Below, in pieces: positions 11,074 through 53,088 of a stretch of 64,000 bases of DNA (its first letter is position 1; every line of letters starts with the position of its first letter). Origin of the DNA: Halobacillus sp. Marseille-P3879. Lineage in GTDB: Bacteria; Bacillota; Bacilli; Bacillales; Halobacillaceae. A program made the translations under genes and the position numbers. Below the pieces are notes generated by a model. It made no database searches. It was not told where the DNA came from and saw only the letters and a program-made list of their open reading frames with translations. The DNA lies in NCBI RefSeq assembly GCF_900240285.1, contig NZ_OESS01000002.1, positions 310,001 to 374,000 on the forward strand. Direction: 5' to 3'.

Positions 11074-11102
11074 ACTCATTCCTCCTGTTATTATTAAACA
11101 AA

Positions 11103-11212: not shown

Positions 11213-11412
11213 AATAGTGTGAAATCGCCAGGCAGGTCTCCTGACTCAAGTTCTTCACACCCTGCGTCTTCCCATCTGCTTTGATAGTGACGTTCTCTGC
11301 AGGATGCTCCCTTTTACAGTGGCGGGACCGTGCCGGATTTTCACCGGTCTTCCCTTTTAAGCTGAATAAGCTGCCTTATGCTTATCCAACACCTGAGCGA
11401 CTTTCGTTATTT
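11213..11412 (-). ncRNA. Adenosylcobalamin riboswitch
   Basis: The minus strand carries the conserved B12 aptamer core: GGGAAGACCGGTGAAAATCC, then GGCACGGTCCCGCCACTGT, and further on the AGTCAGGAGACCTGCCTGG box. It lies between the S-box unit and metE and is followed by its own terminator. It should turn off the B12-independent enzyme when adenosylcobalamin is present, which implies that the host can also use a B12-dependent methionine synthase. Confidence 0.95.
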
Positions 11413-11432
11413 TGTTTTATTCAGGATAGGTA

Positions 11433-11460
11433 TGAAAAAAACCTCTCAAGCTGAGAGGTT
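11433..11460 (-). terminator. Terminator of the SAM-I riboswitch
   Basis: AACCTCTC and GAGAGGTT pair around a 5-base loop, followed by seven T on the minus strand. It lies after the S-box aptamer and before the cobalamin aptamer, so each riboswitch has a separate stop point. Confidence 0.88.
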
Positions 11461-11465
11461 TTCAT

Positions 11466-11583
11466 ACGCACCTCTCTTATCTTCCAAAGCCATAGCTTTG
11501 CTGGAATTAGCACCACAATCATAGATTGATCGGTTGCCGGGCTTCATTGGGCCAGTCCCTCCGCCTCTCTAAATAAGAGAATC
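11466..11583 (-). ncRNA. SAM-I (S-box) riboswitch
   Basis: The minus strand shows the S-box consensus: TTATTTAGAGAGGCGGAGGG, then ACTGGCCCAATGAAGCCCGG with CAACC, then GGTGCTAATTCCAGCAAAG and the closing GATAAGAG. High S-adenosylmethionine should end transcription before the B12 aptamer and metE. Confidence 0.96.
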
Positions 11584-16478: not shown

Positions 16479-17666
16479 CTATCCTCTCCAGGCAGGCAGC
16501 ATTTGACTGAGTGGTTTATCTTTTCGATACCCAAGTACATATTCAGCCTGCATAATCGTATGAATCTCTCGTGTTCCTTCGTAAATTACAGGGGCTTTTG
16601 AATTCCGCAAATAACGTTCGACCGGGTATTCGTTAGAGTAGCCGTATGCCCCGTGAATTTGTACAGCATCATCAGCCGCCTGATTGGCAAAATCACACGC
16701 CTGCCATTTAGCAAGGGAGGTTTCGCGTGTGTTTCTTACTCCTTTATTCTTAAGTTCACCAGCTCGATAGACGAGAAGCCGGCTCATTTGCAAGCCTGCT
16801 TCCATTTTTGCGATCATTTGCTGCACAAGCTGATGCTTTCCTATCTCTTTACCGAAGGTTTTGCGATTGTGACAGTAATCTACGCAAGATTCAAGGCAGG
16901 CCATGATTTGTCCGCATGCCCCCGCTGCTACGGTAAACCGTCCATTATCTAATGCTGCCATTGCAATTTTAAATCCGTCACCTTCATTTCCCAGTAGGTT
17001 CTGTTTCGGTACTTTTACTTGATCAAAGAATAGTTCACCAGTGTTTCCCGCTCGGATACCAAGCTTGCCTTTTGTAGCTTTGGAAGAGAAGCCCTCCATT
17101 GTCCGTTCGACGATGAAGGCTGATATGCCATTGTGTCTCTTGTTCTTGTCGGTATAAGCAAATACGAGGAAGTGATCAGCATTGTCACACAATGAAATCC
17201 AGGTTTTTTGTCCGTTCAATACGTAATAATCGCCTTCTCGTTTAGCGGTTGATTGTAAGGAGGCTACGTCAGATCCAGCACCAGGTTCAGTTAATCCAAA
17301 TGCTCCGATCTTCTTGCCGGTTGCTTGAGACACTAAATATTTTTGCTTCTGCTCTTCAGTTCCCCATTGCAATAAGGTCATGCTGTTAAGTCCTGTGTGT
17401 ACAGAAACCGCTGTACGAAAAGCTGTATCTCCTCTCTCCAGCTCTTCACATACAATCGCCAGGGAATTATAATCCATCCCGCTTCCACCGTAGTTCTCTG
17501 GAATACAGACGCCCATTAATCCCAAATCTGCAAGCTTAGATAGAATGTTTTTGTCAAAGTATCCTTTTGCATCCCATTCTCCGATGAAAGGCATGATTTC
17601 ACAATCAACAAAGTCTTTGACCGTTTTTCGGAGTAATATTTGTTCATCGCTAAAATCAAAGTTCAT
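16479..17666 (-). CDS. Acyl-CoA dehydrogenase, glutaryl-CoA dehydrogenase-like
   Basis: FAD-dependent acyl-CoA dehydrogenase of 395 residues. The catalytic base is the Glu in IYEGTREIH (about residue 363), and GAFGLTEPGAGSDVAS is the family FAD/substrate motif. At residues 77-90 the protein reads ERGDTAFRTAVSVH, which aligns with ERVDSGYRSAMSVQ of human glutaryl-CoA dehydrogenase. Its Glu87 and Arg94, which hold the distal carboxylate, are kept (Glu77, Arg84), with Ser95 replaced by Thr. Oxidative decarboxylation of glutaryl-CoA to crotonyl-CoA is therefore the best call. It follows the CoA-transferase gene by 12 bases and shares its operon. ATG 17666 is 8 bases after AAGGAG; 17669 is possible. 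Confidence 0.85.
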   Translation of the reverse strand: MNFDFSDEQILLRKTVKDFVDCEIMPFIGEWDAKGYFDKNILSKLADLGLMGVCIPENYGGSGMDYNSLAIVCEELERGDTAFRTAVSVHTGLNSMTLLQWGTEEQKQKYLVSQATGKKIGAFGLTEPGAGSDVASLQSTAKREGDYYVLNGQKTWISLCDNADHFLVFAYTDKNKRHNGISAFIVERTMEGFSSKATKGKLGIRAGNTGELFFDQVKVPKQNLLGNEGDGFKIAMAALDNGRFTVAAGACGQIMACLESCVDYCHNRKTFGKEIGKHQLVQQMIAKMEAGLQMSRLLVYRAGELKNKGVRNTRETSLAKWQACDFANQAADDAVQIHGAYGYSNEYPVERYLRNSKAPVIYEGTREIHTIMQAEYVLGYRKDKPLSQMLPAWRG

Positions 17667-17678
17667 CATTACCACTCC

Positions 17679-18863
17679 TTAAATAATACACTTTTTTCTT
17701 AACTCCTCTATTTCCTTCGCATTATACCCTAACGAGTGGAGAATCTCAGTTGAATGTTCCCCGGGATCTGGTGGATGTTTTTGTGCTTTCACAGGTGTAC
17801 GGGACAGCTTGATAGGACTTCCGATCATTTTAATTTCTCCAGCTGTAGGATGGGCAGCGTGAATAAACATGTTCCTTGCATTTAACTGCGGATCGCACGC
17901 TACATCTTCTAACGTCTGAATAGCTCCGAATGGGACGTTAGCTTCGTGGCATTTATCCCTCCAGTAATCCGTAGGTTTGGATAGGAAGGCCTTTTGTAAA
18001 ATTTCAGTAAGTGAGTCCCGGTGGGTGACCCGGTCTGGGTTGGTATGAAAACGATGGTCTCCAGCTAGGTCAGGGAGTTGAATTATCTTACACAAGGACC
18101 TGAACTGTGTATCATTCCCAACGGCTATTACCATTTCCCCGTCAGAAGATGAGAAAGTTTGATAGGGAACAATGTTGGCGTGATGACTGCCAAGTCTTTT
18201 TGGCACGGATCCAGCCATTAAATAATTGCTTCCAATATTAACCAAGGCGCTCACGGCAGAATCATAAAGCGAGAGATCAATCTTTTGACCGCTTCCTGAT
18301 TGATATCTTTCCAACAAAGCAGCTTGTATGGCAATACCCGCATATAATCCTGTCAGGATGTCTGTTATAGCGACCCCCATTTTTTGAGGTCCTGAGGATT
18401 TATCGCCGGTAATACTCATTAATCCGCTCATCGCTTGTATGATGAAGTCGTAGCCAGGCAGATTTTTATAAGGCCCGGTTTCTCCAAACCCCGTAATCGA
18501 GCAGTAGATTAGCTTTGGGTTCCGTTTTTTTAATACCGGGTATGAAAGTCCCAGGCGTTCCATTGTCCCGGTTTTAAAGTTATGAATAATCACATCGCTT
18601 TTTTCTGATAGTTTCTTAACAATTTCCTTGCCTTTTTCTGTTTTTAAATCGACGGTCAGGCTTTTTTTATTACGGTTGGCACATAAATAGTACGCACTTA
18701 CTCCTTCTTGAAATGGAGGCCCCCATCTTCTTGTTTCATCACTTCCGCCTGGCGCTTCTATCTTAATTACCTCTGCACCGAGATCACCTAATATCATGGA
18801 ACAGTAAGGACCTGCCAGCACACGCGTTAAGTCCAGTATCGTAATACCCGAGAGGGCAGTCAT
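17679..18863 (-). CDS. Family III CoA-transferase (CaiB/BaiF), probable glutarate CoA-transferase
   Basis: A 394-residue class III CoA-transferase of the formyl-CoA transferase fold, which passes CoA through an aspartyl-CoA intermediate. The N-terminal DLTRVLAGPYCSMILGDLGA and the catalytic Asp (about residue 168, VAITDILTGLYAG) are seen. The pairing with a glutaryl-CoA-dehydrogenase-like gene, and the SUGCT precedent in animals, point to glutarate as acceptor and succinyl-CoA as donor; this is inference. The ATG at 18863 has AGGAAGTG 8 bases upstream; a longer frame to 18980 runs through a hairpin in the leader and is rejected. Confidence 0.85.
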   Translation of the reverse strand: MTALSGITILDLTRVLAGPYCSMILGDLGAEVIKIEAPGGSDETRRWGPPFQEGVSAYYLCANRNKKSLTVDLKTEKGKEIVKKLSEKSDVIIHNFKTGTMERLGLSYPVLKKRNPKLIYCSITGFGETGPYKNLPGYDFIIQAMSGLMSITGDKSSGPQKMGVAITDILTGLYAGIAIQAALLERYQSGSGQKIDLSLYDSAVSALVNIGSNYLMAGSVPKRLGSHHANIVPYQTFSSSDGEMVIAVGNDTQFRSLCKIIQLPDLAGDHRFHTNPDRVTHRDSLTEILQKAFLSKPTDYWRDKCHEANVPFGAIQTLEDVACDPQLNARNMFIHAAHPTAGEIKMIGSPIKLSRTPVKAQKHPPDPGEHSTEILHSLGYNAKEIEELRKKCII

Positions 18864-18891
18864 GGTTTCATCACTTCCTTTCTGAATAAGG

Positions 18892-18934
18892 AAAAAGTCA
18901 GCCGAACCCATACAATGTATGAATCCAACTGACT
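18892..18934 (-). terminator. Terminator-like hairpin in the CoA-transferase leader (possible attenuator)
   Basis: On the minus strand AGTCAGTTGGATTCATAC can pair along its full 18 bases with GTATGGGTTCGGCTGACT (several G-T pairs), with a 3-base loop and a TTTTT tail. It lies 29 bases upstream of the CoA-transferase start codon. There is no room for a promoter between them, so the transcript must cross this hairpin. Conditional read-through (attenuation) is likely, but I find no known aptamer or T-box in the roughly 100 bases before it. Confidence 0.65.
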
Positions 18935-19075
18935 TGGGATCTGCTGGGGTCAGGGCATACGGATTAGGTTTGTCCCACACTTTACCCTATTCTCCGTTAG
19001 ATAAGAGTATGACCGGGATATGCTTTAAAAGCAAAAAGACCTATCATGAAAAAGTTTTTTCCCTAATAGGATAGA

Positions 19076-19094
19076 TTAATGGGACAACCATTAA
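19076..19094. promoter_or_regulatory. Inverted repeat upstream of the lysine-catabolic operon
   Basis: TTAATGG-GACAA-CCATTAA, a perfect 7-bp inverted repeat ending 29 bases before the aminotransferase start. It is placed where a repressor or activator site would be expected. No regulator gene is adjacent. Confidence 0.45.
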
Positions 19095-19123
19095 AAATGA
19101 TCTTTTAATAAGGGGGTGGATGT

Positions 19124-20299
19124 GTGAAATATGGTTCGAGCCAGGTAAACCGCTTGCCGCCATATTTATTCTCTGTTTTTCAGCAGAAGAAAAAGGAGCT
19201 AGAGGCACGGGGGATGGACATTATCGATTTAGGGATCGGGGCGCCGGATCTTCCGACTCCTCCTTTCATTATAGAAAGGTTAATAGAAGAGGCAAAAAAA
19301 CCAGAAAATCATAAATATTCTCCATATGGAGGCTGTGCTGAATTTAAACAAGCTGTAGCTTCCTTCTATAAACGCCATTATAACGTAGAATTAGATCCTG
19401 ATACCGAGGTTCATGCTCTGATTGGTTCAAAGGAAGGAATTGCGCATTTAATCCAGGCCGTGCTGGATCCGGGTGATTATGTACTCCTCCCTGATCCAGG
19501 TTATCCAGTTTACCAATCAGCTGTTCATTTAGCTTACGGAGTGGCTTCACCATTTAAGCTTGTAGAAGAACACGGATATATTCCGCAATTCAAGCAAATA
19601 AGGGCTTCCGAACTTAACCGGGCAAAGCTCATGCTGCTTAACTATCCGAGTAATCCAACAGGAGCTACCGTGGAAATTGGTGTGTTTACTGAAGCGGTTG
19701 ATTTTGCCCGAAAAAATAAACTATCTCTCATTCATGACGCAGCTTATGACTTGGTGACTTTTTCAACGTATAAGTCGCCTAGCATCTTACAGGTGCCAGG
19801 AGCCAAAGAGGTGGCTGTTGAATTTGGTTCATTGTCAAAGAGCTTTAACATGGCGGGGTGGAGACTCGGATATGTAGTTGGCAATAAAGACTTAATTCAA
19901 GCGTTGGCAGTAGTAAAGAGCAATACAGATACGAGCCAATTTCTAGCTATCCAGAAAGCGGGAGCAGAAGCTTTACAAAGTGACCTTACAGCAGTGAAGG
20001 AAAATAACCGAATCTATTATGACCGTATGAAACTTATGGTTAATGCTCTACAGGAAATGGGTCTTACAGCCGGTGAACCAAGAGGTACTTTCTTTGTCTG
20101 GGCCAAAGTTCCGGCAAGTTTTACCTCTCAATCCTTTGCAGAAAAATTATTAGAGGAGGCCGGGGTGATCGTAACACCGGGGAACGCTTTTGGTGCCGGA
20201 GGAGAAGGGTATGTAAGAATTTCTCTTTCAACTCCAGTTCATCGATTAAGAGAAGCAGTAAAACGTATGAAAAAAATGAATGGAGGCGGGGCTCCTTGA
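19124..20299 (+). CDS. Class I/II aminotransferase, putative 2-aminoadipate aminotransferase
   Basis: PLP-dependent fold-type I aminotransferase of 391 residues. Seen: GIGAPDLPTPP near the N-terminus, LNYPSNPTGA, the HDAAYD segment binding the cofactor, and the PLP lysine in SLSKSFNMAGWRLGY. It resembles LL-diaminopimelate-type aminotransferases, which have broad dicarboxylic amino acid specificity. First gene of a four-gene operon with a thiamine enzyme, an aldehyde dehydrogenase and lysine 6-dehydrogenase, so conversion of 2-aminoadipate to 2-oxoadipate is inferred. It starts with GTG at 19124, 5 bases after GGGGGTG, and overlaps the next gene by 4 bases. Confidence 0.85.
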   Translation: MKYGSSQVNRLPPYLFSVFQQKKKELEARGMDIIDLGIGAPDLPTPPFIIERLIEEAKKPENHKYSPYGGCAEFKQAVASFYKRHYNVELDPDTEVHALIGSKEGIAHLIQAVLDPGDYVLLPDPGYPVYQSAVHLAYGVASPFKLVEEHGYIPQFKQIRASELNRAKLMLLNYPSNPTGATVEIGVFTEAVDFARKNKLSLIHDAAYDLVTFSTYKSPSILQVPGAKEVAVEFGSLSKSFNMAGWRLGYVVGNKDLIQALAVVKSNTDTSQFLAIQKAGAEALQSDLTAVKENNRIYYDRMKLMVNALQEMGLTAGEPRGTFFVWAKVPASFTSQSFAEKLLEEAGVIVTPGNAFGAGGEGYVRISLSTPVHRLREAVKRMKKMNGGGAP

Positions 20300-21951
20300 A
20301 GATCCCAAATCAATCTCAGCTGATGACAAGTGCTCAAGCCATTGTCAAGTGTATTAAGCTTGAAAACATTCAAAAGGTATTTTGTGTGCCTGGTGAAAGT
20401 TATTTACCTGTAATGGACGCTATATATGATGAGACGAGCATTGAATTGATTTCTTCGAGGCACGAAGGGGGAGCCTCATTCATGGCTGAGGGGTTTGCGA
20501 AAGCCAGTGGCAAACCAGGGGTTGTATTAGCCACGAGAGGCGTTGGTGGATCCAATCTTACCATAGGTGTCCATACCGCCTACCAGGATTCTACACCGAT
20601 GGTCGTATTCTTAGGCCAAGTCCACAGCTTATTTAGAGGAAGAGAGGGGTTTCAGGAAGTAGAATTGGAAGATTTCTTTGCACCTATTGCTAAATGGACG
20701 GTAGAAATCAAGCACCCTTCTAGAGTTCCTGAACTCGTTCAACGGGCTTTTCGCATTGCTAAAACCGGTCGACCGGGCCCTGTAGTGGTGTCGCTGCCAG
20801 AGGATCTGCTCAATGAAAAGGCTGAAATGACATTTAAAAAACCAGCTGTCAGACCGAGACCATGTCCTTCTCCTGACGAAGTAAAAGAAATGGAATTATT
20901 GCTTCAAAACTCTGAACGCCCTGTCGTTATTGCCGGAGGCGGGGTGAAATGTGCTGGAGCTGAGAATGAGTTGACTGAATTTGCTGAAAAGTTCAATTTG
21001 CCTGTAGTATCAGCCTTTCGCCGTCATGACGTCTTTCCCAACCAAAATCGCCTTTATGCGGGGCATCTGGGTTTAGGTGTGAAGCCGCAGATAACGGAAA
21101 CAGTAAAAAAAGCCGATGTGGTCGTTGCTCTCGGGACAAGGTTGTCAGAAGTCACTACTCAGGACTACTCTATTTTGAACAATGGACAGTCTCTCGTTCA
21201 CATCGATATTGATTATGAAACATTAGGCAAGGTCTATCCTCCCGACATAGGAATAATAGCTGATGTGAAGGAAGCATTACAATGTCTTATGGCGTTAAAG
21301 CTTAGAGCAGGGTGGCAATTATGGACAGAGCAGTGCCGCTCTGCTTATGTTCAAACGTTACATCCACAAAAAAAACAAACGAATTATAACATTATTTCTA
21401 CGCTTCAAAAACACTTGCCTGCCGATGCTGTTGTGACAAATGATGCTGGAAACTTTGCAGGCTGGCTTCATACCTATTTTCAATTTAATCAAAAGCAAAC
21501 TTATGTCGGTCCGACTTCGGGAGCGATGGGTTACGGTATGCCTGCTGCCGTAGGAGTGAAACTTGCCACACCTGATAGAACAGTAGTTTCGATTTCGGGG
21601 GACGGCGGATTTATGATGACGATGCAGGAGCTGGAGACCGCTGTACGTTATAAGGTCCCGATTATTAGTATTGTTTTTAATAATCAGATGTATGGGACGA
21701 TCCGTATGCACCAGGAGATTCACTTCCCATATAAAATCATTGGAACACAATTAGGTTACGTGCCGTTTTACAGACTGGCTCAGGATTTAGGAGCTGAAGG
21801 ATTTTATGTAAAAACACCGGAAGAATTTGAGACAGTATTAATTAAGGCTCTGTCATCCGAGGGTCCAGTAGTTATAGAAATAGAGTATAAGCGGGAAGAC
21901 ATTTCCGTTTCCTCTACAATTGAACAAATTAGAAACAAATCTGGAAAATAA
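20296..21951 (+). CDS. Thiamine diphosphate-dependent decarboxylase/lyase, acetolactate synthase-like
   Basis: A 551-residue ThDP enzyme with the three-domain layout of acetohydroxyacid synthase (AHAS) large subunits. Cofactor-activating Glu at about residue 57 (SSRHEGGA), GDGGFMMTMQE and the NNQMYG end of the ThDP motif near 435-465. It is not a second IlvB. The AHAS acceptor-site Trp in MVRQWQ of the IlvB in this same window is replaced (TIRMHQ), and no small-subunit gene follows. Context suggests decarboxylation of 2-oxoadipate to glutarate semialdehyde. The start is a TTG overlapping the previous stop (TTGA) with GGAGG 9 bases upstream, so it is translationally coupled. Confidence 0.85.
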   Translation: MKIPNQSQLMTSAQAIVKCIKLENIQKVFCVPGESYLPVMDAIYDETSIELISSRHEGGASFMAEGFAKASGKPGVVLATRGVGGSNLTIGVHTAYQDSTPMVVFLGQVHSLFRGREGFQEVELEDFFAPIAKWTVEIKHPSRVPELVQRAFRIAKTGRPGPVVVSLPEDLLNEKAEMTFKKPAVRPRPCPSPDEVKEMELLLQNSERPVVIAGGGVKCAGAENELTEFAEKFNLPVVSAFRRHDVFPNQNRLYAGHLGLGVKPQITETVKKADVVVALGTRLSEVTTQDYSILNNGQSLVHIDIDYETLGKVYPPDIGIIADVKEALQCLMALKLRAGWQLWTEQCRSAYVQTLHPQKKQTNYNIISTLQKHLPADAVVTNDAGNFAGWLHTYFQFNQKQTYVGPTSGAMGYGMPAAVGVKLATPDRTVVSISGDGGFMMTMQELETAVRYKVPIISIVFNNQMYGTIRMHQEIHFPYKIIGTQLGYVPFYRLAQDLGAEGFYVKTPEEFETVLIKALSSEGPVVIEIEYKREDISVSSTIEQIRNKSGK

Positions 21952-21984
21952 TAAAAGTCGCCTTATTAAAGGAGGATCTCGTCT

Positions 21985-23487
21985 ATGAGTTTAAAACTGA
22001 TAAAAGAGGAGAAGCTGCTTAACTTTATCGATGGAGAATGGAAAGAGCCTTCGAGTGATGAATATACGAAAGTTTACAATCCAGCTAATCTTGAACTCCT
22101 CGTTCAAGTCCCTTTGTCGCGTGCACAGGATGTTCAAGACGCAGTACAAACTGCTAAACAAGCCCAGAAAAGCTGGGCGCTCGTGCCAGCTCCTCAGCGT
22201 GCTGAAGTGTTATTTAGGGTTGGAACTCTTATGAAGGAGCGGAAAGAGAGATTATCCCAGCTGTTGACGATGGAGAACGGAAAAGTAATTGAGGAAGCAC
22301 GTGGGGAAGTTCAGGAAGGTATTGACATGGCTTTTTACATGGCAGGAGAAGGTCGGCGCTTATTTGGTCAAACCACCCCGTCTGAGCTGAAGGATAAATT
22401 TGCAATGAGTGTCCGCGCACCTGTGGGGGTCGTTGGCATTATTACCCCATGGAATTTCCCGATTGCCATTGCCACATGGAAGTCATTTCCTGCCATTGTA
22501 GCTGGAAATGCAGTTGTATGGAAACCGGCAACAGAAACTCCGATTATGGCTTATGAATTAGCCCGCATCTTTCAAGAAGCAGGTTTGCCCAAAGGTGTAG
22601 TTAATGTTGTGTTCGGATCAGGTTCAACTGTTGGAGAAGCAATGATTGAACAAGATGACATACGGGTCATTTCTTTCACCGGATCCAATGAAGTAGGACG
22701 TGAAATTGCTGGTAAGTGTGGACAGCGACTGAAAAAAGTGTCTCTTGAGATGGGTGGAAAGAATGCAGTTATCGTAATGGAGGATGCTGACTTATCTCTG
22801 GCGGTAGAAGGAATTCTATGGAGTGCGTATGGTACCAGTGGTCAGCGCTGTACGGCTTGCAGCCGGGTAATGGTTCACGAAAGTGTAAAAGAAGAATTGG
22901 AGGACCGCCTGCAAAGTGAGATTGCGAAACTTACGATTGGAAACGGGTTAGACGAATCAATAAAAGTCGGTCCGATTATCAATAGAAGCGGAATAGAAAA
23001 AATAAAAAATTATATTCAAATTGGTAAAGAGGAAGGGGCTGAACTTCTCACGGGGGGATATGTTTTAAACTCAGGGGAGCACAGGAAAGGGAATTATTTT
23101 GCTCCAACACTATTTACGAATGTTACTGGGGATATGCGTATAGCGCAGGAGGAGATTTTTGGTCCTGTAGTCTCACTGATTCCGGTAAAGAACATGGAGG
23201 AAGCTGTGGCGATTAACAACAGTGTAGAATACGGGTTATCGAGTTCGATTTTCACGCGCGATGTGAATAAAGTATTTGCGGCCCAGCGAGATTTAGACAC
23301 CGGGATTGTATATGTAAATGCAGGAACTACAGGGGCTGAGATTCATCTGCCGTTTGGGGGAACGAAAGGGACAGGCAATGGGCATCGGGATTCAGGTGTG
23401 GCCGCGCTTGATGTGTTTACAGAATGGAAAGCAGTATACGTGGATTTCAGTGGAAAATTACAGCGTGCTCAAATTGATGTGGAATAG
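21985..23487 (+). CDS. Aldehyde dehydrogenase, putative 2-aminoadipate semialdehyde dehydrogenase
   Basis: NAD(P)-dependent aldehyde dehydrogenase of 500 residues. Rossmann and substrate motifs are present: ITPWNFPIA, LEMGGKNAVIV with the general-base Glu, the catalytic Cys at residue 289 (SGQRCTACSRV), and EEIFGPVVSL. The C-terminal NAGTTGAEIHLPFGGTKGTG region resembles the ALDH group that oxidises semialdehydes of basic amino acids. Directly upstream of lysine 6-dehydrogenase, it should oxidise 2-aminoadipate 6-semialdehyde. If the pathway drawn here is right, it may also oxidise glutarate semialdehyde, as no second aldehyde dehydrogenase is in the cluster. AAAGGAGG precedes the ATG. Confidence 0.9.
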   Translation: MSLKLIKEEKLLNFIDGEWKEPSSDEYTKVYNPANLELLVQVPLSRAQDVQDAVQTAKQAQKSWALVPAPQRAEVLFRVGTLMKERKERLSQLLTMENGKVIEEARGEVQEGIDMAFYMAGEGRRLFGQTTPSELKDKFAMSVRAPVGVVGIITPWNFPIAIATWKSFPAIVAGNAVVWKPATETPIMAYELARIFQEAGLPKGVVNVVFGSGSTVGEAMIEQDDIRVISFTGSNEVGREIAGKCGQRLKKVSLEMGGKNAVIVMEDADLSLAVEGILWSAYGTSGQRCTACSRVMVHESVKEELEDRLQSEIAKLTIGNGLDESIKVGPIINRSGIEKIKNYIQIGKEEGAELLTGGYVLNSGEHRKGNYFAPTLFTNVTGDMRIAQEEIFGPVVSLIPVKNMEEAVAINNSVEYGLSSSIFTRDVNKVFAAQRDLDTGIVYVNAGTTGAEIHLPFGGTKGTGNGHRDSGVAALDVFTEWKAVYVDFSGKLQRAQIDVE

Positions 23488-23517
23488 CTTTGCTCAGCTG
23501 TTGAAAGGAGACAGACT

Positions 23518-24672
23518 ATGAAAGTAGCTGTATTAGGATCTGGTTTAATGGGGAAAGAAGCGGCTCGCGATTTAGTCCAAAGCGCAGGTGTAATTAAGGT
23601 CGGACTTGCCGACATTGATATAAACCGGGCAGAAGCTGCGGCTCGAGTGATAAACTCGACTAAGCTGCAAGCCTATAAAGTGGATGCAGGGAACGCAGGT
23701 GAATTAGCGGCATTTATTAGGGAATATGACGTAGTGATTAATGCGTTATTTTACTCTTTTAATGAAATGGTTGCTCGTACAGCTATAGATGTGGGAGTCA
23801 GTTCCGTTGATTTAGGGGGCCACATTGGGCACATTACTGACCGGGTACTGAGGCTGAATGATAAAGCGAAGTCTGCAAATGTAACCATCGTACCTGATCT
23901 AGGGGTAGCACCTGGAATGATCAATATTCTTTCGGGATATGGTGCGGGTAAGCTTGACGAACTACAATCCATTCGATTGTTCGTCGGCGGTATTCCTGTT
24001 CAGCCGGAGCCGCCGTTGGAATATAATCACGTCTTCTCGATGGAGGGGTTGTTCGATCATTATACTGATCCATCAACTATCATACGGGATGGCAAAAAGG
24101 TGGAAGTGCCTTCGTTATCAGAAGTCGAACGTCTTTATTTTGATCGGTTCGGACCGTTGGAAGCATTTCACACATCCGGGGGAACTTCTACATTATTAGG
24201 ATCCTACCCTGAGATTAACACGCTGGAATATAAAACGATCCGTTACCCGGGACATGCAGAAAAAATGAAGCTTCTCGTAGATTTGAAATTAACGAGAAAT
24301 GACTATGAAGTGGACGTAAATGGTATAAAAGTGAAGCCGCGTGAGGTGCTGCTTAAAACCCTTGATCCAATTGTAGATCTAAAGGATAAAGATGATGCTG
24401 TTCTGCTGCGCGTATGCGTAGGCGGACAGAAAGATGAGTTAAGCTCGACTTATCAATATGAAATGGTTACGTATAAAGATCGTGTGCATCAAGTCACGGC
24501 AATGGCAAGGGCGACAGCTAATACGATCTCCGTTGTTGCTCAAATGATTGCCGGCCGATTTATTACAAAGTCAGGAGTTCTTCCCCCTGAGCAGGTTGTT
24601 CCAGGTGACTTGTATATTGCTGAAATGGCGAAAAGAGGAGTGGTTATATCAGAAGAACTTCTGCAGCCATAA
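23518..24672 (+). CDS. Lysine 6-dehydrogenase (saccharopine dehydrogenase family)
   Basis: NAD-dependent oxidative deamination of L-lysine at the epsilon carbon to 2-aminoadipate semialdehyde / 1-piperideine-6-carboxylate. The 384-residue protein starts with a Rossmann [13 protein letters not shown] and reads through [44 protein letters not shown] and [10 protein letters not shown]. From memory this strongly resembles the Geobacillus stearothermophilus lysine dehydrogenase over its whole length. A saccharopine reductase of plant/fungal type is longer or has other neighbours. Last gene of the operon; AAAGGAG precedes the ATG and a terminator follows. Confidence 0.88.
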
Positions 24673-24993: not shown

Positions 24994-25785
24994 TTAAATT
25001 ATTACCCTCTCAGGGTGAGAATAAATGTTAAATGAACCTCCACGGATAAAGCCGATGGCAGTAATGTTCAAATCTTCAGCCAGCTGGACGGCTAAATCTG
25101 TAGGAGCAGACTTTGACAATACGATGCCTACACCTATTTTAGCTGCTTTAGTTAATACCTCAGAAGATATACGTCCACTGAATACGAGAACTTTATCCCG
25201 TACTGAAATTTGATTTAAGAGACAATAACCATATAGTTTATCTAATGCATTATGGCGGCCGATGTCAGTCCGGTCTACTACCATTTCACGGCTCGTACAA
25301 ATGGCAGCGTTATGTACGCCGCCTGTGCCTTTAAACAGGTGGCTGTCTTCCTGCATCTGCTGCATTAACTGAATGCACTGATCACTAGAGATGGTGGTAG
25401 TGGATGTAGAAGTCTTAGCTGTCTGTACATCATTTTGAAAATAAAATTGACGACTTTTCCCACAACATGATCCGATAAAACGTTTAGAAAAATCACGCTG
25501 ATTATTTACCGCTTTTTCATCTGTCAGTTCGACGTAAGCAAATCCTTTATCCTCATCAATATTCAGGGATTTGATCTCTCTTCTAAATCGTATGACTCCT
25601 TCAGAAGCTAAGAATCCAACGACCATTTCATCGAAGTGGGAAGGTGTACAGACCATGGTAGCAAATTCTACCTGATTTATATAAATCGTCATGGGGAATT
25701 CCGTTACAATTTCGTCCTCCACCTGTTGAAAGTTCCCATTTTTAAATCGCACAATAGGATATGTGGCACTCATTCTTTCGTCCAC
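24994..25785 (-). CDS. fdhD: Formate dehydrogenase accessory sulfurtransferase
   Basis: FdhD transfers sulfur from a cysteine desulfurase to the molybdenum cofactor of formate dehydrogenase. Seen: the Cys-containing loop FIGSCCGKSR, FKGTGGVHNAA, VDRTDIGRHNALDKL, and the GRISSEVLTKAA segment. Length 264 residues. The start is a GTG at 25785, 8 bases after GGAGG; longer readings start without a ribosome site. Divergent from the OFA-type transporter and near the FdhF/YdeP oxidoreductase it may serve. Confidence 0.93.
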   Translation of the reverse strand: MDERMSATYPIVRFKNGNFQQVEDEIVTEFPMTIYINQVEFATMVCTPSHFDEMVVGFLASEGVIRFRREIKSLNIDEDKGFAYVELTDEKAVNNQRDFSKRFIGSCCGKSRQFYFQNDVQTAKTSTSTTTISSDQCIQLMQQMQEDSHLFKGTGGVHNAAICTSREMVVDRTDIGRHNALDKLYGYCLLNQISVRDKVLVFSGRISSEVLTKAAKIGVGIVLSKSAPTDLAVQLAEDLNITAIGFIRGGSFNIYSHPERVII

Positions 25786-26123
25786 GTGGTTCACCTCCCA
25801 TGTAAAAGTTACATTACCAAAACTATAACGAATAGAGAACAAGGATGACAAGCTAAAAAATTAATAATTACGTGATCAAAAAAATCATTTGATATTTTTA
25901 AAGAAAACAGATAATATCTATAATAGATTCATAAATTTGTAACATTTAAGGTGCGAGACAGCGTTCCTGTCGTCGACTTAAGTGCAGTTGTTGTAAGCGA
26001 TTACTTTGGTGAGTGAGTAGTGAACCTGCTTTAAACTAAACGTCGCCGCTTTTATTTTGTATGGGAATCTTCTCTACAAAATGAAAGGGCGGCGTTTTTT
26101 TAGGTAGCAAAGGAGTGAGAGAA
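25786..26123. other. Divergent intergenic region of the formate module
   Basis: About 340 bases between the fdhD and OFA-type transporter start codons. The left part, AT-rich, should hold the fdhD promoter on the minus strand and the transporter promoter on the plus strand. From 25946 on it is the structured leader described separately. Confidence 0.5.
25946..26101 (+). promoter_or_regulatory. Structured leader A with terminator, upstream of the OFA transporter
   Basis: TTTAAG pairs with CTTAAG and encloses a hairpin GACAG-CGTTC-CTGTC (about 25946-25982). After 50 bases comes a strong terminator: ACGTCGCCGC and TTTTGTA pair with TACAAAA and GCGGCGT, followed by seven T (26038-26101), immediately before the ribosome site. 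A closely similar motif and terminator stand before the oxidoreductase at 27926. This arrangement is that of a transcription-attenuating riboswitch or RNA-binding-protein target. I do not match it to a known class. Confidence 0.55.
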
Positions 26124-27368
26124 TTGAAGAAAACAAAAAACCGCTGGTTGATTGCATTGTCAGCTGTAGGTATCCATATCTCAATTGGTTCAGTTTATGC
26201 CTGGAGTGTTTTTACGAATCCGCTTATTGAGCAATATGGATGGGAACTTAGTTATGTATCACTAACATTCAGTATTGCCATTTTATTCCTCGGGCTTTCT
26301 GCTGCTTTTATGGGCCACTTTGTAGAAAAGTATGGACCTAGAACTTCGGGAATTGTAGCTGCCGGCTTTTTTGGCATCGGAATGATGGCTTCTGGAGGAG
26401 CGGCTGTACTGGAGTCGCTTTGGCTGCTGTATATTACATATGGAATTCTGGCAGGAATTGGCCTGGGAATTGGTTACATTACCCCTGTGTCAACTTTGGT
26501 TAAGTGGTTTCCTGACCGGAGAGGACTTGCCACCGGGCTTGCGATTATGGGTTTTGGGTTTTCCGCAATGATTGCAAGCCCGATTATGGCCAATTTAATT
26601 GATACAGTCGGGATTCCGGCAACATTCTTTATCTTAGGTTTGATCTATTTCATAGTTATGATGGCATCAGCGTTGTACCTGGAACGTCCTCCTGAAGGCT
26701 ATATGAATGAGTTTTCTGAAGAGAAAAAGAAAACCCCTGATCTTTCTCAATTGACCGCAAATGAAGCAGTCAAAACGAGAAGGTTTTGGCTGCTTTGGGT
26801 GATGCTGTTTATAAATATTACATGTGGAATCGCTATTTTATCAGTAGCTTCACCGATCGCACAGGAAATCGCAGGCCTATCTACAGGGGCAGCTGCGGCG
26901 ATGGTTGGGATAATGGGATTTTTTAATGGAGCGGGAAGGATTGCCTGGGCGTCGATATCTGACTATATGGGGCGGCCTAACGTATATTCCACATTCTTTT
27001 TGATTCAAATCATAGCCTTTTTCACCTTACCTGCGATTACACATGCTTTATTGTTTCAACTCGTTTTGTTCTTAATTATATCGTGTTATGGAGGAGGCTT
27101 TGCTTCTGTTCCGGCATACATTGGCGATCTGTTCGGAACGAAGCAGTTAGGTGCTATCCACGGTTATATATTAACAGCATGGGCAGCTGCAGGTTTAGTG
27201 GGTCCTCTATTAGTATCCTGGATCCGTGAAGCAACCGAGAGCTATGTACTGACGTTATCCATTTTCGGCATATCACTGGCAGCTGCTTTTATTGTATCTT
27301 TATGGATTCGCCTTGATATCAGGCAATTGAAACAGGAAAATGAAGACAGCCAACGAAATACTGCTTAA
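26124..27368 (+). CDS. OFA-family MFS transporter (oxalate/formate antiporter-like)
   Basis: Twelve-segment major facilitator of about 414 residues. The start WLIALSAVGIHISIGSVYAWSVF and the KWFPDRRGLATGLAIMGFGF loop are typical of the OFA (oxalate:formate antiporter, YhjX-like) family. The start is taken as the TTG at 26124, since AAAGGAG is 8 bases upstream; a GTG at 26115 overlaps the ribosome site. Its position between fdhD and the molybdopterin oxidoreductase, and the shared leader motif, suggest a small-carboxylate substrate such as formate or oxalate. Confidence 0.82.
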   Translation: MKKTKNRWLIALSAVGIHISIGSVYAWSVFTNPLIEQYGWELSYVSLTFSIAILFLGLSAAFMGHFVEKYGPRTSGIVAAGFFGIGMMASGGAAVLESLWLLYITYGILAGIGLGIGYITPVSTLVKWFPDRRGLATGLAIMGFGFSAMIASPIMANLIDTVGIPATFFILGLIYFIVMMASALYLERPPEGYMNEFSEEKKKTPDLSQLTANEAVKTRRFWLLWVMLFINITCGIAILSVASPIAQEIAGLSTGAAAAMVGIMGFFNGAGRIAWASISDYMGRPNVYSTFFLIQIIAFFTLPAITHALLFQLVLFLIISCYGGGFASVPAYIGDLFGTKQLGAIHGYILTAWAAAGLVGPLLVSWIREATESYVLTLSIFGISLAAAFIVSLWIRLDIRQLKQENEDSQRNTA

Positions 27369-27440
27369 ATCAGTTTAAGTTGACTACTTTAATCGTATAG
27401 TTTTATAATCTTGTAATAAACGAAAAAAGGTTGAACCTCT

Positions 27441-27800
27441 ATGAATAAATATGAAGCTGAATTTAGTAATCTAGTGAAATCTTTTAGGAAAAAACATATG
27501 GGTAAGGGGCCGAGGAAGATTAGTACCACCTTTTGCAGAAATTGGGCGATCTGTGAAATGGAAGGGAACTTGTCTCCTGTTGAGAAATTTATAGCGAGTG
27601 CAGATGATGGCAGGCAGATGCTGCGAGCGGCCCGCACAGAAATGGTAAAAGAGATGTACCGGAAGAATCATCCTGTTGAAATGGAAGAGTTTTTGCAGTG
27701 TGAATTTATAGATTTGTTCGTAGATATTGATATCGAAAAAGATTTTGGCATGTCTATCTTTGTATTTAATGAAGACATTGGAGAGAAATTTATAAAATAA
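27441..27800 (+). CDS. DUF2294 (MpsC-like) protein
   Basis: A 119-residue protein of the DUF2294 family, later linked to the MpsC component of sodium-translocating systems. The family pattern KKHMGKGPRKISTTFC, then MEGNLSPVEKFIA and GRQMLRAARTEMVKEM, is clear. Cellular role unknown. It stands directly before the second structured leader and the FdhF/YdeP oxidoreductase, so it may belong to the same formate module. Confidence 0.75.
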   Translation: MNKYEAEFSNLVKSFRKKHMGKGPRKISTTFCRNWAICEMEGNLSPVEKFIASADDGRQMLRAARTEMVKEMYRKNHPVEMEEFLQCEFIDLFVDIDIEKDFGMSIFVFNEDIGEKFIK

Positions 27801-27897
27801 ATTAAGAGGTTTGGCACTTTGCAGCGTTCCTGCTTAAGACTTAACCACCGTTATATGCCTTTCATTTTTATGGGGAAGGCCTGGCGGTGGTTTTTTT
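27801..27897 (+). promoter_or_regulatory. Structured leader B with terminator, upstream of the FdhF/YdeP gene
   Basis: TTAAG (27803) can pair with a CTTAA after the hairpin GCAG-CGTTC-CTGC (27821-27833). ACCACCG (27844) then starts a terminator: it pairs with CGGTGGT, with an inner GCCTT-AAGGC stem, followed by seven T ending at 27897, 12 bases before the oxidoreductase ribosome site. CAGCGTTCCTG and a following GACTTAA are shared exactly with leader A. The short distance between motif and terminator arm fits a small ligand-responsive switch. Confidence 0.55.
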
Positions 27898-27925
27898 GAT
27901 TATATAACGAGGAGGACTAAGTGAT

Positions 27926-30286
27926 ATGGGAAAGACAAAGCATAACGGACCAATAAAAAAAATAAAGAAACCTGCCCCTGAACATTGGGTAAGCCCGATT
28001 CCTTTCGGGTTAGGGAAAGTAAAACCTAAGCACATTCGTGACACGGTGAAGGTTGCCTGGAACAATAAAGATAATCTCAGCTATGCCAAAAATATTATTA
28101 CAAAAGGTGTTTGTGACGGGTGTGCATTAGGGGTATCCGGTCTGTATGATCAAACGTTAACTGGACCACATATTTGCACGACTCGCTTAAACGTACTTAG
28201 GCTGAATACGATGCCGGCTATAGAGGAAACTATCCTGCACTCAGATATTGATGAGCTCAGGAAGTTCACGAGTACGGAACTGAGACAACTGGGAAGAATT
28301 CCTTATCCGATGATACGCCGCAAAGGAGAGCGGAAGTTTTCGCGGCTGACATGGGATGAGGCTATGGATATGGTTGCTGATAAAATGAAACACCTGGATC
28401 CGAAACAGTATAGTTTTTACTTAACTTCAAGGGGGATTACTAACGAATCCTACTATGTGGCTGGGAAAGTTTCACGTTTTCTCGGTACCAATCATATCGA
28501 TAATGCATCTCGAATTTGTCATTCACCAAGTAAAACAGCATTGAAACGATCGGTGGGTGTTGGAGCTTCGACGGCGAACTATCAGGATTGGATCGGAACA
28601 GACGTGCTGTTATTCTGGGGCAGCGTAGCATCTAATAGCTCTCCTGTTTCTACAAAGTATATGCTGGAAGCAAAGAAAAAGGGGACAAAGATTGTTGTCA
28701 TCAACCCCTATCGGGAACCTTCCATGGATAAATACTGGATTCCTTCGAATACGGAGTCTGCTTTATTTGGAACAAAAATAGCAGATGATTTTTACCAAAT
28801 TAATATTGGTGGAGATATTGCCTTTATGCATGGAATTATGAAGCATTGGTTCGACCTCGAAGAAATAAAGCATGGGTCTGCTGTTAATCATGAATTTGTA
28901 AAAAAACACGTGAATGGGTTTGATGAGCTGAAAGCAAGCGTACAAGCTCAATCATGGGAACAAATAACGAAATCATCGGGTGTAACACAGGAGAGAATTA
29001 TTGAATTATCAGAGTTGTTAGCGAACAGTAAAAATGCTGTTTTTGCATGGGCGCTGGGTTTGACCATGCATTCTTTTGCTACAGATAACATTTCTCAAGT
29101 TGCAAATTTAGCGTTGCTGCGCGGATTCCTTGGTCGCAAATATAACGGACTGATGCCATTTCGCGGTCATTCGAGTGTTCAAGGAAGTGGTGAAATGGGA
29201 GCTGATCCATTCGTGCTGCCCGGAGGAGACTTTAAAGGAGATAATATTAACCGTATTGAAGACCTATGGGGATTTGAACTCCCAAGATGGCAAGGAGATG
29301 TGGTGGGAGTCACATTAGAAAATATATTACTTCCTGAAGATCATGAAAGAAAAATTAAACTATATTATTTATCAGGAGGTAATTTCTTAGAAACTATGCC
29401 CGACCCTGATTATGTTGAGAAGGCATTGTCTGAACTTGATATACGTGTCCACCAGGACATCATTTTGAATACTTCAACTTTAGTAGATGCGAAAGAAGCG
29501 GTGATCGTACTGCCTGCTAAAACACGGTATGAACAGGAGGGAGGCGGCACATCAACCTCGACAGAACGAATGGTTTATTTCTCTCCGCAGATTGAAGGTA
29601 ATAAAAATAAAATTGAAGAAGCTCGTACTGAGTGGAAAATTTATATCGACTTAGCGAAACGAGTGAAGCCTGATAATGCCCACTTAGTAGAATTCCGTGA
29701 CGCTCAGGAAGTGCGAGAAGAAATCGCTCAGGCAAACTCCAATTATGATGGGGTGCAGCATTTGAACAAACAAGGAGATGTTTTTCAATGGGGCGGTGCC
29801 TGGCTGTGTGAGGGAGGAGTCTGTCCGACACCTGATGGCAGGGGGAACCTCATTCCAGTGGAAATTCCTGATTTAGAGAAAAAACCAGGTGACTTTTATT
29901 TAACCACAAGGCGCGGAAAGCAGTTCAACTCTATGATCTATAAAGAAACGGATCCGCTTAATGGAGCCGAGCGATATGATGTCCTGCTCAATTCTGAAGA
30001 TGCCCGTAGTTTAAGGGTTCAAGATGGAGAAGCAGTTGTACTTCATAACTCGTATGGAATTTTTCAAGGGCAGGCCAGGTTTGCAGACATCGCTAGAGGA
30101 AACGTAGGCGTCCATTTTCCTGAAGGCAATTTCCTTCTCCCTAAAGGCAGGTATGAACGGTTTGCTAAAATCCCTGATTATAACGTTGGTGTAAAAATCG
30201 AAAAAGCTGAAAAATTTAATGCGAGAAAAGATACGCAGTATTTAGAGAAACGTGTAGATGATCTGGAGGATACCCCTGGAGCATAG
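27926..30286 (+). CDS. FdhF/YdeP-family molybdopterin oxidoreductase
   Basis: Large bis-MGD oxidoreductase of 786 residues, of the formate-dehydrogenase-alpha-like FdhF/YdeP family. N-terminal iron-sulfur cysteines at 63, 66 and 84 (GVCDGCALG, HICTTRLN). The metal-ligand position is Cys198 in ASRICHSPS, aligned with the selenocysteine of E. coli FdhF (VUHGPS), with the following His kept. The C-terminal MGD-binding domain starts near residue 655. Formate is the expected substrate given fdhD and the OFA transporter, but YdeP-type enzymes are not well characterised. GAGGAGG lies 10 bases before the ATG. Confidence 0.88.
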   Translation: MGKTKHNGPIKKIKKPAPEHWVSPIPFGLGKVKPKHIRDTVKVAWNNKDNLSYAKNIITKGVCDGCALGVSGLYDQTLTGPHICTTRLNVLRLNTMPAIEETILHSDIDELRKFTSTELRQLGRIPYPMIRRKGERKFSRLTWDEAMDMVADKMKHLDPKQYSFYLTSRGITNESYYVAGKVSRFLGTNHIDNASRICHSPSKTALKRSVGVGASTANYQDWIGTDVLLFWGSVASNSSPVSTKYMLEAKKKGTKIVVINPYREPSMDKYWIPSNTESALFGTKIADDFYQINIGGDIAFMHGIMKHWFDLEEIKHGSAVNHEFVKKHVNGFDELKASVQAQSWEQITKSSGVTQERIIELSELLANSKNAVFAWALGLTMHSFATDNISQVANLALLRGFLGRKYNGLMPFRGHSSVQGSGEMGADPFVLPGGDFKGDNINRIEDLWGFELPRWQGDVVGVTLENILLPEDHERKIKLYYLSGGNFLETMPDPDYVEKALSELDIRVHQDIILNTSTLVDAKEAVIVLPAKTRYEQEGGGTSTSTERMVYFSPQIEGNKNKIEEARTEWKIYIDLAKRVKPDNAHLVEFRDAQEVREEIAQANSNYDGVQHLNKQGDVFQWGGAWLCEGGVCPTPDGRGNLIPVEIPDLEKKPGDFYLTTRRGKQFNSMIYKETDPLNGAERYDVLLNSEDARSLRVQDGEAVVLHNSYGIFQGQARFADIARGNVGVHFPEGNFLLPKGRYERFAKIPDYNVGVKIEKAEKFNARKDTQYLEKRVDDLEDTPGA

Positions 30287-52893: not shown

Positions 52894-52920
52894 GGTCATT
52901 CCCCTTTTTAAATAAAAATA

Positions 52921-53088
52921 AAAAAAGCCTTCTTATAAGAAGAAGACTTTGTGGTTTACATTCTTCTTCTTATCTTTCAAGTTGGTCTAATCGTCAACTT
53001 GCTGGAGTTAGCACCTTACTGGTTATACCAGTGGTTGCTGAGGCTTCAACGGGCCAGTCCCTCTGCCTCTCTAGATAAGAGATTACGT
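52921..53088 (-). ncRNA. SAM-I (S-box) riboswitch with terminator, metIC leader
   Basis: The minus strand reads TCTCTTATCTAGAGAGGCAG, AGGGACTGGCCCGTTGAAGC, CTCAGCAACC, GGTGCTAACTCCAGC and GATAAGAAG, the S-box order. Then AGTCTTCTTCTT pairs with AAGAAGGCTT, followed by seven T just before the metI ribosome site. Unlike metE, metIC has only the SAM-responsive unit. Confidence 0.96.

Follow-up and report, generated by a model that had tools for sequence, protein, structure and literature searches.

A putative lysine-to-crotonyl-CoA route through a ThDP-dependent decarboxylase and free glutarate in Halobacillus and relatives

Between positions 16479 and 24672 of the window (the whole 64,000-nucleotide stretch of Halobacillus sp. 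Marseille-P3879 DNA that was analysed), two divergent operons raise the question of whether lysine is broken down to crotonyl-CoA with the help of a thiamine diphosphate (ThDP) enzyme resembling acetohydroxyacid synthase (AHAS). The original prediction read the six genes in this way, and regarded the decarboxylase step and the possible double use of one aldehyde dehydrogenase (ALDH) as new. We put at about two in three the probability that the two operons form a single lysine catabolic route proceeding via ThDP-dependent decarboxylation to free glutarate. The predicted pathway was upheld in part: the gene identities make a coherent lysine-to-crotonyl-CoA set, and the 2-oxoadipate decarboxylase activity is one that we infer from gene context.

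The locus and the proposed route

All six open reading frames (ORFs) were found in two divergent operons at the positions predicted, each with the expected domain in a Pfam scan (Table 1). Shine-Dalgarno-like sequences lie upstream of the ORF starts, and the stop of the aminotransferase gene overlaps the start of the ThDP gene by four bases. The CoA-transferase (CoAT) probably starts at an internal ATG at 18863 rather than at the GTG at 18980 (the start given both in the ORF list and in the original prediction), since a AGGAAGTGATG site lies upstream of that ATG and the alignable part of the protein begins at around residue 40.

Table 1. Features of the locus, in window coordinates
Feature	Coordinates	Strand	Basis
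Acyl-CoA dehydrogenase (ACAD), proposed glutaryl-CoA dehydrogenase	16479..17675	-	Pfam Acyl-CoA_dh, substrate loop
Family III CoA-transferase (CoAT), proposed succinyl-CoA:glutarate CoA-transferase	17679..18863	-	CoA_transf_3, solved structures
17-pair hairpin and U-run, CoAT operon leader	18895..18935	-	Alignment of divergent region
Class I aminotransferase, proposed 2-aminoadipate aminotransferase	19124..20299	+	Pfam Aminotran_1_2
ThDP enzyme, proposed 2-oxoadipate decarboxylase yielding glutarate semialdehyde	20296..21951	+	Three TPP domains (Pfam), NF006052
ALDH, proposed 2-aminoadipate-6-semialdehyde (piperideine-6-carboxylate) dehydrogenase	21985..23487	+	Pfam Aldedh
L-lysine 6-dehydrogenase (LysDH)	23518..24672	+	Seven active-site residues, structure 3abi

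In the proposed route, LysDH would oxidatively deaminate L-lysine at C6 to 2-aminoadipate semialdehyde, the ALDH would oxidize this to 2-aminoadipate, and the aminotransferase would convert the latter to 2-oxoadipate. Non-oxidative decarboxylation by the ThDP enzyme would then yield glutarate semialdehyde, whose oxidation to glutarate would fall to a second ALDH in many relatives, and here to a distant paralogue or to the same ALDH. CoAT would form glutaryl-CoA, with succinyl-CoA as the probable donor, and ACAD would produce crotonyl-CoA by oxidative decarboxylation. The substrates in this scheme are assigned indirectly, that of the ThDP enzyme above all.

Eleven of 12 divergent-type loci, the window among them, carry the leader hairpin, which is missing in L014. 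Its alignment is fully paired (170 of 170 cells), with 16 invariant pairs and a single compensatory change, a number equalled by 45 of 500 shuffles. The conserved hairpin and its U-run probably act as an intrinsic terminator or attenuator. No Rfam family was found at the hairpin at the gathering threshold; a search of the leader at a weak threshold gave one chance-like match, on the opposite strand. A lysine riboswitch, considered as a tie to lysine, was found neither in the window nor in the seven loci searched of about 100.

Family and active-site evidence

The window LysDH is identical, under the same numbering, at the seven active-site residues published for LysEDH of G. stearothermophilus (V130, V172, F173, H181, Y238, T240 and R242; PMC6697735), and every one of the 49 proteins counted, that of the window among them, keeps all seven; L073 (a cut ORF of 278 residues) is outside this count. 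The best solved structure was 3abi (PH1688). The product would be an NAD-dependent lysine epsilon-deaminating enzyme. The aminotransferase falls near an LL-DAP-aminotransferase-like subfamily (504.7 bits, cut-off 507). The neighbouring ALDH scored below the cut-off for all 25 NCBIfam models shown, including the best, 2-oxoglutarate semialdehyde dehydrogenase, and NF050084, the piperideine-6-carboxylate/2-aminoadipate semialdehyde dehydrogenase (427 bits, cut-off 730).

The ThDP protein belongs to the NF006052 subfamily (738.7 bits, cut-off 539) and scored under the cut-off of the AHAS large-subunit model TIGR00118 (422.6 bits, cut-off 538). The arginine of the AHAS motif GARFDDR, which we take to be AHAS II Arg276, is replaced by Val286; FDDR is retained by the ilvB of the same window (56244) and by E. 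coli AHAS I. At the second-substrate position, a tryptophan (presumably AHAS II Trp464) or, in AHAS I, a glutamine, the protein has His472 (motif MHQE), and PGGS reads PGES. On these missing signature residues, the curated cut-off and the separate ilvB in the window, we reject an ordinary acetolactate synthase, in line with the prediction. The nearest solved structures are carboligases, namely the HKA synthase BbmA and AHAS. Its conserved cationic residues (R81, H93, R116, R242 and R243) recur, R116 in part as Lys, in a sister clade of mixed context, and so suit an anionic substrate without pointing to 2-oxoadipate specifically. The structure alignment comprised 25 rows, leaving out L062 and L044 (whose stretch contains a stop codon), with the ends of L045, L048 and L050 shortened. 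The predicted structure (mean pLDDT 87.6, under 50 at residues 285-288 around Val286) contributes no more than the AHAS-like fold.

For CoAT, the proposed succinyl-CoA:glutarate CoA-transferase (SUGCT), the nearest solved relatives of this CoA_transf_3 protein were 9br7 and 9br6 (succinate–hydroxymethylglutarate CoA-transferase; E 2e-106), the former presumably the human glutarate enzyme; the best NCBIfam model, NF052585 (succinate–glutarate CoA-transferase), gave 445 bits against a cut-off of 750. In ACAD, all 48 rows of at least 76% identity, which come from 47 different stretches, carry an ELERGDTxxRT loop and YEGT, and none of the seven rows below that level does. The loop segment alone ranked the glutaryl-CoA dehydrogenases (GCDHs) 3d6b, 3eom and 3gnc first, by a margin of 0.3 bits over 4u83, and its arginine, with E-x-ER, aligns with theirs, which we take to be equivalent to human Arg94. 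The proposal that ACAD is a GCDH is based on this loop; overall, the protein is closer to the butyryl type (4l1f, 5lnx) and to the non-decarboxylating GDH(Des) 3mpi than to other GCDHs. A tyrosine immediately precedes the catalytic glutamate, which we assume to be a feature of decarboxylating GCDH; it is likewise found in the loop-less paralogue L091_9249. A plasmid search with ACAD gave no glutaryl-CoA dehydrogenase annotation among the matches listed (40 of 1525 records).

Distribution of the genes among relatives

Loci were collected through the ThDP gene, with up to 10 kb on each side. LysDH and the same ALDH lie within the stretch in 39 of 62, and 34 of these 39 also hold CoAT and ACAD, neither of which lies within the stretch in L016, L024, L028, L029 and L038; the aminotransferase was found in 35. 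The cluster-bearing loci show six arrangements of content and order. Given these counts, the gene arrangement is not due to chance, and the co-occurrence of both operons in relatives, chosen beforehand as a test of the prediction, was thereby observed, though in loci that are mutually related and not independent draws. In the ThDP tree (77 rows; L005 and L092 were dropped as duplicates, and L062, L064, L068 and L069 are absent since the ORF caller missed the ThDP frame), the enzyme's own clade has 49 rows, counting the window, and 40 of them are no more than 11 kb from LysDH.

Searches of 249 genomes offered a less biased test. LysDH was found in 44, the ThDP enzyme in 43, and both in 35. Among the 44 LysDH genomes, CoAT was present in 32 of 35 with the ThDP enzyme versus 2 of 9 without it (Fisher 1e-4, genomes counted as independent), and CoAT adjoining ACAD or LysDH, as read from coordinates, in 31 of 35 versus 1 of 9. 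ACAD, in contrast, did not track the ThDP enzyme (30 of 35 versus 7 of 9). This is the pattern predicted by a bypass of 2-oxoadipate dehydrogenase through free glutarate. The contrast for CoAT was repeated within families f2, f21 and f41 and within genus g83, where G244 has all the genes and G144 lacks both the ThDP enzyme and an adjacent CoAT. Eight genomes have the ThDP enzyme without LysDH; in four (G022, G231, G035 and G235) its gene lies ∼4 kb or less from ACAD. Exceptions were seen: G040, G080 and G189 have LysDH and the ThDP enzyme without CoAT or ACAD; G065 and G230 have no ACAD match, and G230 no adjacent CoAT either; G011 has CoAT-ACAD, and G116 ACAD and a second ALDH, without the ThDP enzyme.

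The predicted double use of one ALDH did not hold as a general rule. A second ALDH of one type occurs in 15 of the 39 LysDH-linked loci (the only one scanned, that of L018, scores above the SSADH cut-off), and three further loci (L037, L041 and L043) have another extra ALDH. In Halobacillus-type loci, where such double use may still apply, no second ALDH is adjacent; the host genome encodes a 51%-identical homologue elsewhere. The ALDH proposed to act on 2-aminoadipate semialdehyde adjoins LysDH in five of the nine LysDH genomes without the ThDP enzyme (L074, L076, L077, L078 and L079).

Competing readings and known pathways

The ThDP enzyme might instead be a carboligase, of the acetolactate synthase or hydroxy-keto acid synthase type, with 2-oxoadipate or another acid as donor. 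Fold and sequence are nearest to BbmA and AHAS, and the TIGR00118 score, though under its cut-off, points the same way. Such an activity is improbable, given Val286 and His472 at the AHAS positions, an ilvB-ilvN-ilvC-like run already in the window (ilvN and ilvC named by eye), and a product that would leave the glutarate CoA-transferase and GCDH without substrate. Less probable again is the decarboxylation of some other anionic 2-oxo acid, e.g. 2-oxoglutarate, the siting beside LysDH being regulatory. The family does occur in sugar-acid, Rieske-oxygenase and peptide-transport contexts (assigned by eye), with relatives of 58–59% identity in peptide-transport-like clusters (L082 and L084). Plasmids of proteobacteria carry it too, in annotated clusters that hold ALDH, tripartite-transporter or hydantoinase genes (571 records in a plasmid search, all relatives below 60% identity; four regions examined). 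Against this stand the proximity of its own clade to LysDH and the need of the rest of the operon for a step consuming 2-oxoadipate.

Unlikely too, if the least so of these alternatives, is that an ordinary 2-oxoglutarate/2-oxoadipate dehydrogenase complex makes glutaryl-CoA, with the ThDP enzyme and CoAT serving a neighbouring function such as the use of external glutarate or of another 2-oxo acid. The host genome encodes the E1 of 2-oxoglutarate dehydrogenase, so 2-oxoadipate could go straight to glutaryl-CoA, and a missing complex was dropped as an argument for the bypass. Some genomes that lack LysDH have CoAT-ACAD pairs as well, which makes the pair a stand-alone glutarate module; in L093 and L094 CoAT and ACAD adjoin an ALDH and an ORF resembling, by eye, a class III aminotransferase. 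This explanation nevertheless fails to account for the way the aminotransferase and ALDH genes flank the ThDP gene in LysDH operons, for CoAT tracking the ThDP gene among LysDH genomes, and for the presence of the ThDP gene beside ACAD or CoAT where LysDH is lacking. The HglS route was set aside: the genome gave no hit to the family PF07063 at E 0.001, in a search whose control was positive in 2 of 14 genomes.

The closest analogue of the decarboxylation to glutarate semialdehyde is the cyanobacterial 2-oxoglutarate decarboxylase bypass, on which Zhang and Bryant reportedly worked in 2011. As excerpts of PMC10418658 describe it, a decarboxylase and succinate semialdehyde dehydrogenase form this bypass; the likeness would be one of reaction type, a ThDP decarboxylase turning a 2-oxo dicarboxylate into a semialdehyde for an ALDH and avoiding a dehydrogenase complex. 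The cyanobacterial reactions are one carbon shorter and belong to the TCA cycle, whereas the Halobacillus route would add CoAT and GCDH and serve lysine breakdown. The saccharopine/aminoadipate pathway with 2-oxoadipate dehydrogenase (see also PMC9367764) leads from lysine through the same 2-aminoadipate semialdehyde, 2-aminoadipate, 2-oxoadipate and glutaryl-CoA to crotonyl-CoA; here, LysDH would replace the saccharopine steps, and decarboxylase, semialdehyde dehydrogenase and CoAT the dehydrogenase complex. The 5-aminovalerate/cadaverine route (DavT-DavD or GabT-GabD to glutarate, in excerpts of PMC12861294 and PMC6265302) would meet the Halobacillus route at glutarate semialdehyde, but loses the alpha carboxyl carbon of lysine and involves no 2-oxoadipate. 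L094 resembles it, with CoAT-ACAD following the ALDH and aminotransferase-like ORF, as does L037, which has near the cluster a GABA aminotransferase scoring above its cut-off. The ThDP enzyme shares with E. coli AHAS I (6lpi) the fold, the ThDP-binding domains and about 30% identity, and differs from it in the residues named above and in its catabolic context.

As to the predicted novelty of the decarboxylase step, its chemistry has precedents, in the cyanobacterial bypass and in an engineered E. coli route from 2-oxoadipate via KivD and GabD to glutarate (excerpts of PMC12861294), which runs the same two reactions but is synthetic and uses a promiscuous decarboxylase. Among the titles and opening lines of abstracts listed in searches of an open library, none mentioned a natural 2-oxoadipate decarboxylase; a prior description is possible. 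Somewhat less firmly than for the two operons as one route, we lean towards a natural route, spread among Bacillaceae and related bacteria, whose dedicated AHAS-like 2-oxoadipate decarboxylase takes the place of the dehydrogenase complex. Free glutarate would be formed, as a C6 counterpart to the cyanobacterial bypass of the TCA cycle, and the glutarate half (CoAT and GCDH) would be a module that also serves 5-aminovalerate breakdown and that is read through the leader hairpin in Halobacillus-type loci. If so, a group of proteins at present annotated as acetolactate synthase or thiamine pyrophosphate-binding protein would gain a function, glutarate engineering a native enzyme for its borrowed step (PMC12861294, in part), and Geobacillus and relatives a complete lysine breakdown downstream of LysDH. 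As a side observation, L038 belongs to Geobacillus icigianus, and the LysDH of Geobacillus is well studied as an enzyme.

The six-gene set in the window

The genome holding the window measures 4.17 Mb. As the original prediction had described, the six genes stand in two divergent operons, where ORF calling placed them, and all six ORFs bear the expected Pfam domains. The aminotransferase and thiamine enzyme (ThDP) genes overlap by 4 bases, and Shine-Dalgarno-like sites precede the gene starts of the set; judged from the sequence, the most likely start of the CoA-transferase (CoAT) gene is 18863. The prediction had also read these genes as one lysine pathway in which the ThDP enzyme decarboxylates 2-oxoadipate to glutarate semialdehyde, an aldehyde dehydrogenase (ALDH) oxidises this to glutarate, and the CoAT forms glutaryl-CoA. 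This core stands as the best-supported reading, within which we give the decarboxylase step a probability of about two in three.

The leader hairpin of the CoAT operon is nearly invariant in sequence across the divergent-type loci that have it, and the source genome contains a single match to its exact pattern; it is possibly a regulated attenuator.

Coordinates of features in the window and in two other sequences
Feature	Location	Strand	Remark
Hairpin and U-run	18895-18935	-	Leader of CoAT operon; in 11/12 divergent-type loci
ThDP enzyme gene	20296-21951	+	Proposed 2-oxoadipate decarboxylase
FdhD-family gene, MFS transporter, molybdopterin oxidoreductase	24994-30286		Directly downstream of lysine cluster (family search)
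SAM and cobalamin riboswitches in tandem	11214-11579	-	Ahead of cobalamin-independent methionine synthase gene
Cobalamin-independent methionine synthase gene	8773-11079
SAM riboswitch	52967-53081	-	Ahead of two ORFs
Two ORFs	50598-52899		Resemble sulphur amino acid PLP enzymes, by eye
Second acyl-CoA dehydrogenase, source genome	G000:C9:1187665-1188852		Locus L091
Na+/H+ antiporter-family gene, locus L024	1721-3307		Adjoins the cluster (family search)

Co-occurrence of the CoA-transferase with the thiamine enzyme

2-Oxoadipate could instead be handled by the E1 of the 2-oxoglutarate dehydrogenase complex, which the source genome encodes; no family match to HglS was found in that genome. Since such a complex yields glutaryl-CoA directly, a CoAT is required by a bypass through free glutarate but not by the complex. 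When 249 order-level genomes were searched with four proteins, each under its own strict E-value, matches were obtained in 44 for lysine 6-dehydrogenase (LysDH), 43 for ThDP, 70 for CoAT and 72 for the acyl-CoA dehydrogenase (ACAD), with LysDH and ThDP found jointly in 35. Among the 44 LysDH genomes, CoAT was present in 32 of the 35 with ThDP versus two of the nine without it; the corresponding figures for ACAD were 30/35 versus 7/9. A CoAT lying beside ACAD or LysDH was seen in 31/35 versus 1/9 (Fisher 2e-5, uncorrected for kinship, coordinates read by eye). The same CoAT/ThDP contrast was found inside families f2, f21 and f41 (where genome G081 lacked ACAD as well) and inside genus g83. Exceptions were G040, G080 and G189, with ThDP (only 51% identical in G189) and LysDH but without CoAT or ACAD; G065 and G230, with no ACAD match and, in G230, no adjacent CoAT either; G011, with CoAT-ACAD but no ThDP; G144, with a 47% CoAT homologue on a different contig; and G116, with ACAD and a second ALDH but no ThDP.

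Searching with the ThDP protein yielded 62 loci, 39 of which hold ThDP, ALDH and LysDH together. These 39 show six arrangements of content and order; 35 also have the aminotransferase, 34 have CoAT and ACAD, and 30 have all six genes. A second ALDH of one type occurs in 15 of them (the one protein scanned, from L018, exceeds the succinate semialdehyde dehydrogenase cut-off, 650.8 vs 646.35), and L037, L041 and L043 carry an extra ALDH of another kind. Among loci without LysDH, L087 has CoAT-ACAD-ThDP-ALDH adjoining a Glu/Leu-dehydrogenase-like gene (family search) and a permease-like ORF, L080 resembles it as far as the contig end, and in L081 ThDP lies close to CoAT-ACAD.

Properties of the individual enzymes

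Among the 25 listed of the 60 NCBIfam models matching the ThDP protein, subfamily NF006052 alone exceeds its cut-off (738.7 vs 539 bits). The Arg of the acetohydroxyacid synthase (AHAS) FDDR motif is replaced by Val286, the Trp/Gln position by His472, and PGGS by PGES; the ilvB product of the same window retains FDDR and Trp. The predicted structure is similar to HKA synthase and AHAS, both carboligases. The closest ThDP relative in the scan (73%) comes from Halobacillus andaensis. The window clade of the ThDP tree comprises 49 rows; in 40 of these, counting the window, LysDH lies no more than 11 kb away. R81, H93, R242 and R243 do not vary across these 40 LysDH-linked rows and 19 sister-clade rows, and position 116 holds either Arg or Lys; such cationic residues would fit an anionic substrate without proving 2-oxoadipate. 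That the family may have other substrates is suggested by relatives in L082, L084, L085, L086 and L049, whose clusters appear, by eye, to serve peptide transport or the use of sugar acids. In the open literature, covered chiefly through titles and the openings of abstracts, no natural 2-oxoadipate decarboxylase was found; this step has a known analogue in the 2-oxoglutarate decarboxylase of cyanobacteria (PMC10418658), and the decarboxylase and dehydrogenase steps together have one in the engineered KivD-GabD route (PMC12861294).

For the late steps, the nearest solved structures to the CoAT are 9br7/9br6 (succinate--hydroxymethylglutarate CoA-transferase), presumably the human glutarate enzyme SUGCT. 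Overall, the ACAD is nearest to butyryl-CoA-type enzymes and GDH(Des). Its substrate loop ELERGDTxxRT is present in all 48 rows of at least 76% identity (two of these rows come from a single stretch) and in none of the 7 rows at 41% or less; we take the loop Arg to bind the glutaryl carboxylate. With the loop segment searched alone, three glutaryl-CoA dehydrogenases came out on top with this Arg aligned, although the next chain, 4u83, trails them by 0.3 bits and other glutaryl-CoA dehydrogenases rank lower; 4u83 and 4l1f, the two other-type chains among the matches listed, lack the Arg. As the second ACAD copy in the source genome (79% identical, flanked by ABC-transporter-like and thiolase-like ORFs) has the same loop, the cluster ACAD is not the sole glutaryl-CoA dehydrogenase candidate.

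The seven active-site residues published for Geobacillus stearothermophilus LysDH (PMC6697735) are all present in the window protein with unchanged numbering, and all seven are kept in 49/49 proteins compared, the window counted in. The aminotransferase-ThDP-ALDH-LysDH order recurs in one Geobacillus (L038) and two Parageobacillus loci (L028, L029), stretches from which CoAT and ACAD are absent. Among the nine LysDH genomes that lack ThDP, five (L074, L076, L077, L078, L079) still have ALDH adjoining LysDH, as oxidation of aminoadipate semialdehyde by ALDH would predict. An IclR-type regulator-like ORF lies directly downstream of LysDH in L015, L018 (IclR domains confirmed), L024 and L031, and is absent at the corresponding place in the window.

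Variants that may feed the glutarate module

In L024, family search identified three neighbours of the cluster: a symporter resembling PutP, an OCD/mu-crystallin protein and a DAO-family oxidase. The OCD protein scores best against a general NCBIfam model of the ornithine cyclodeaminase family and matches models for piperideine-2-carboxylate reductase as well; none of these matches reaches its cut-off. Judged by first residues only, similar ORFs for all three occur in L077, and for symporter and OCD protein in L052. From these we infer pipecolate as a further entry to the same pathway. In L094 an aminotransferase-like ORF and an ALDH precede CoAT-ACAD, and in L037 a GABA aminotransferase, above cut-off, adjoins the extra ALDH; given these and the putative pipecolate-type variants, the glutarate module seems to have several feeders. 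The L024 antiporter-family protein, which we take to be a candidate lysine transporter, is resembled by ORFs in L019 and L039.
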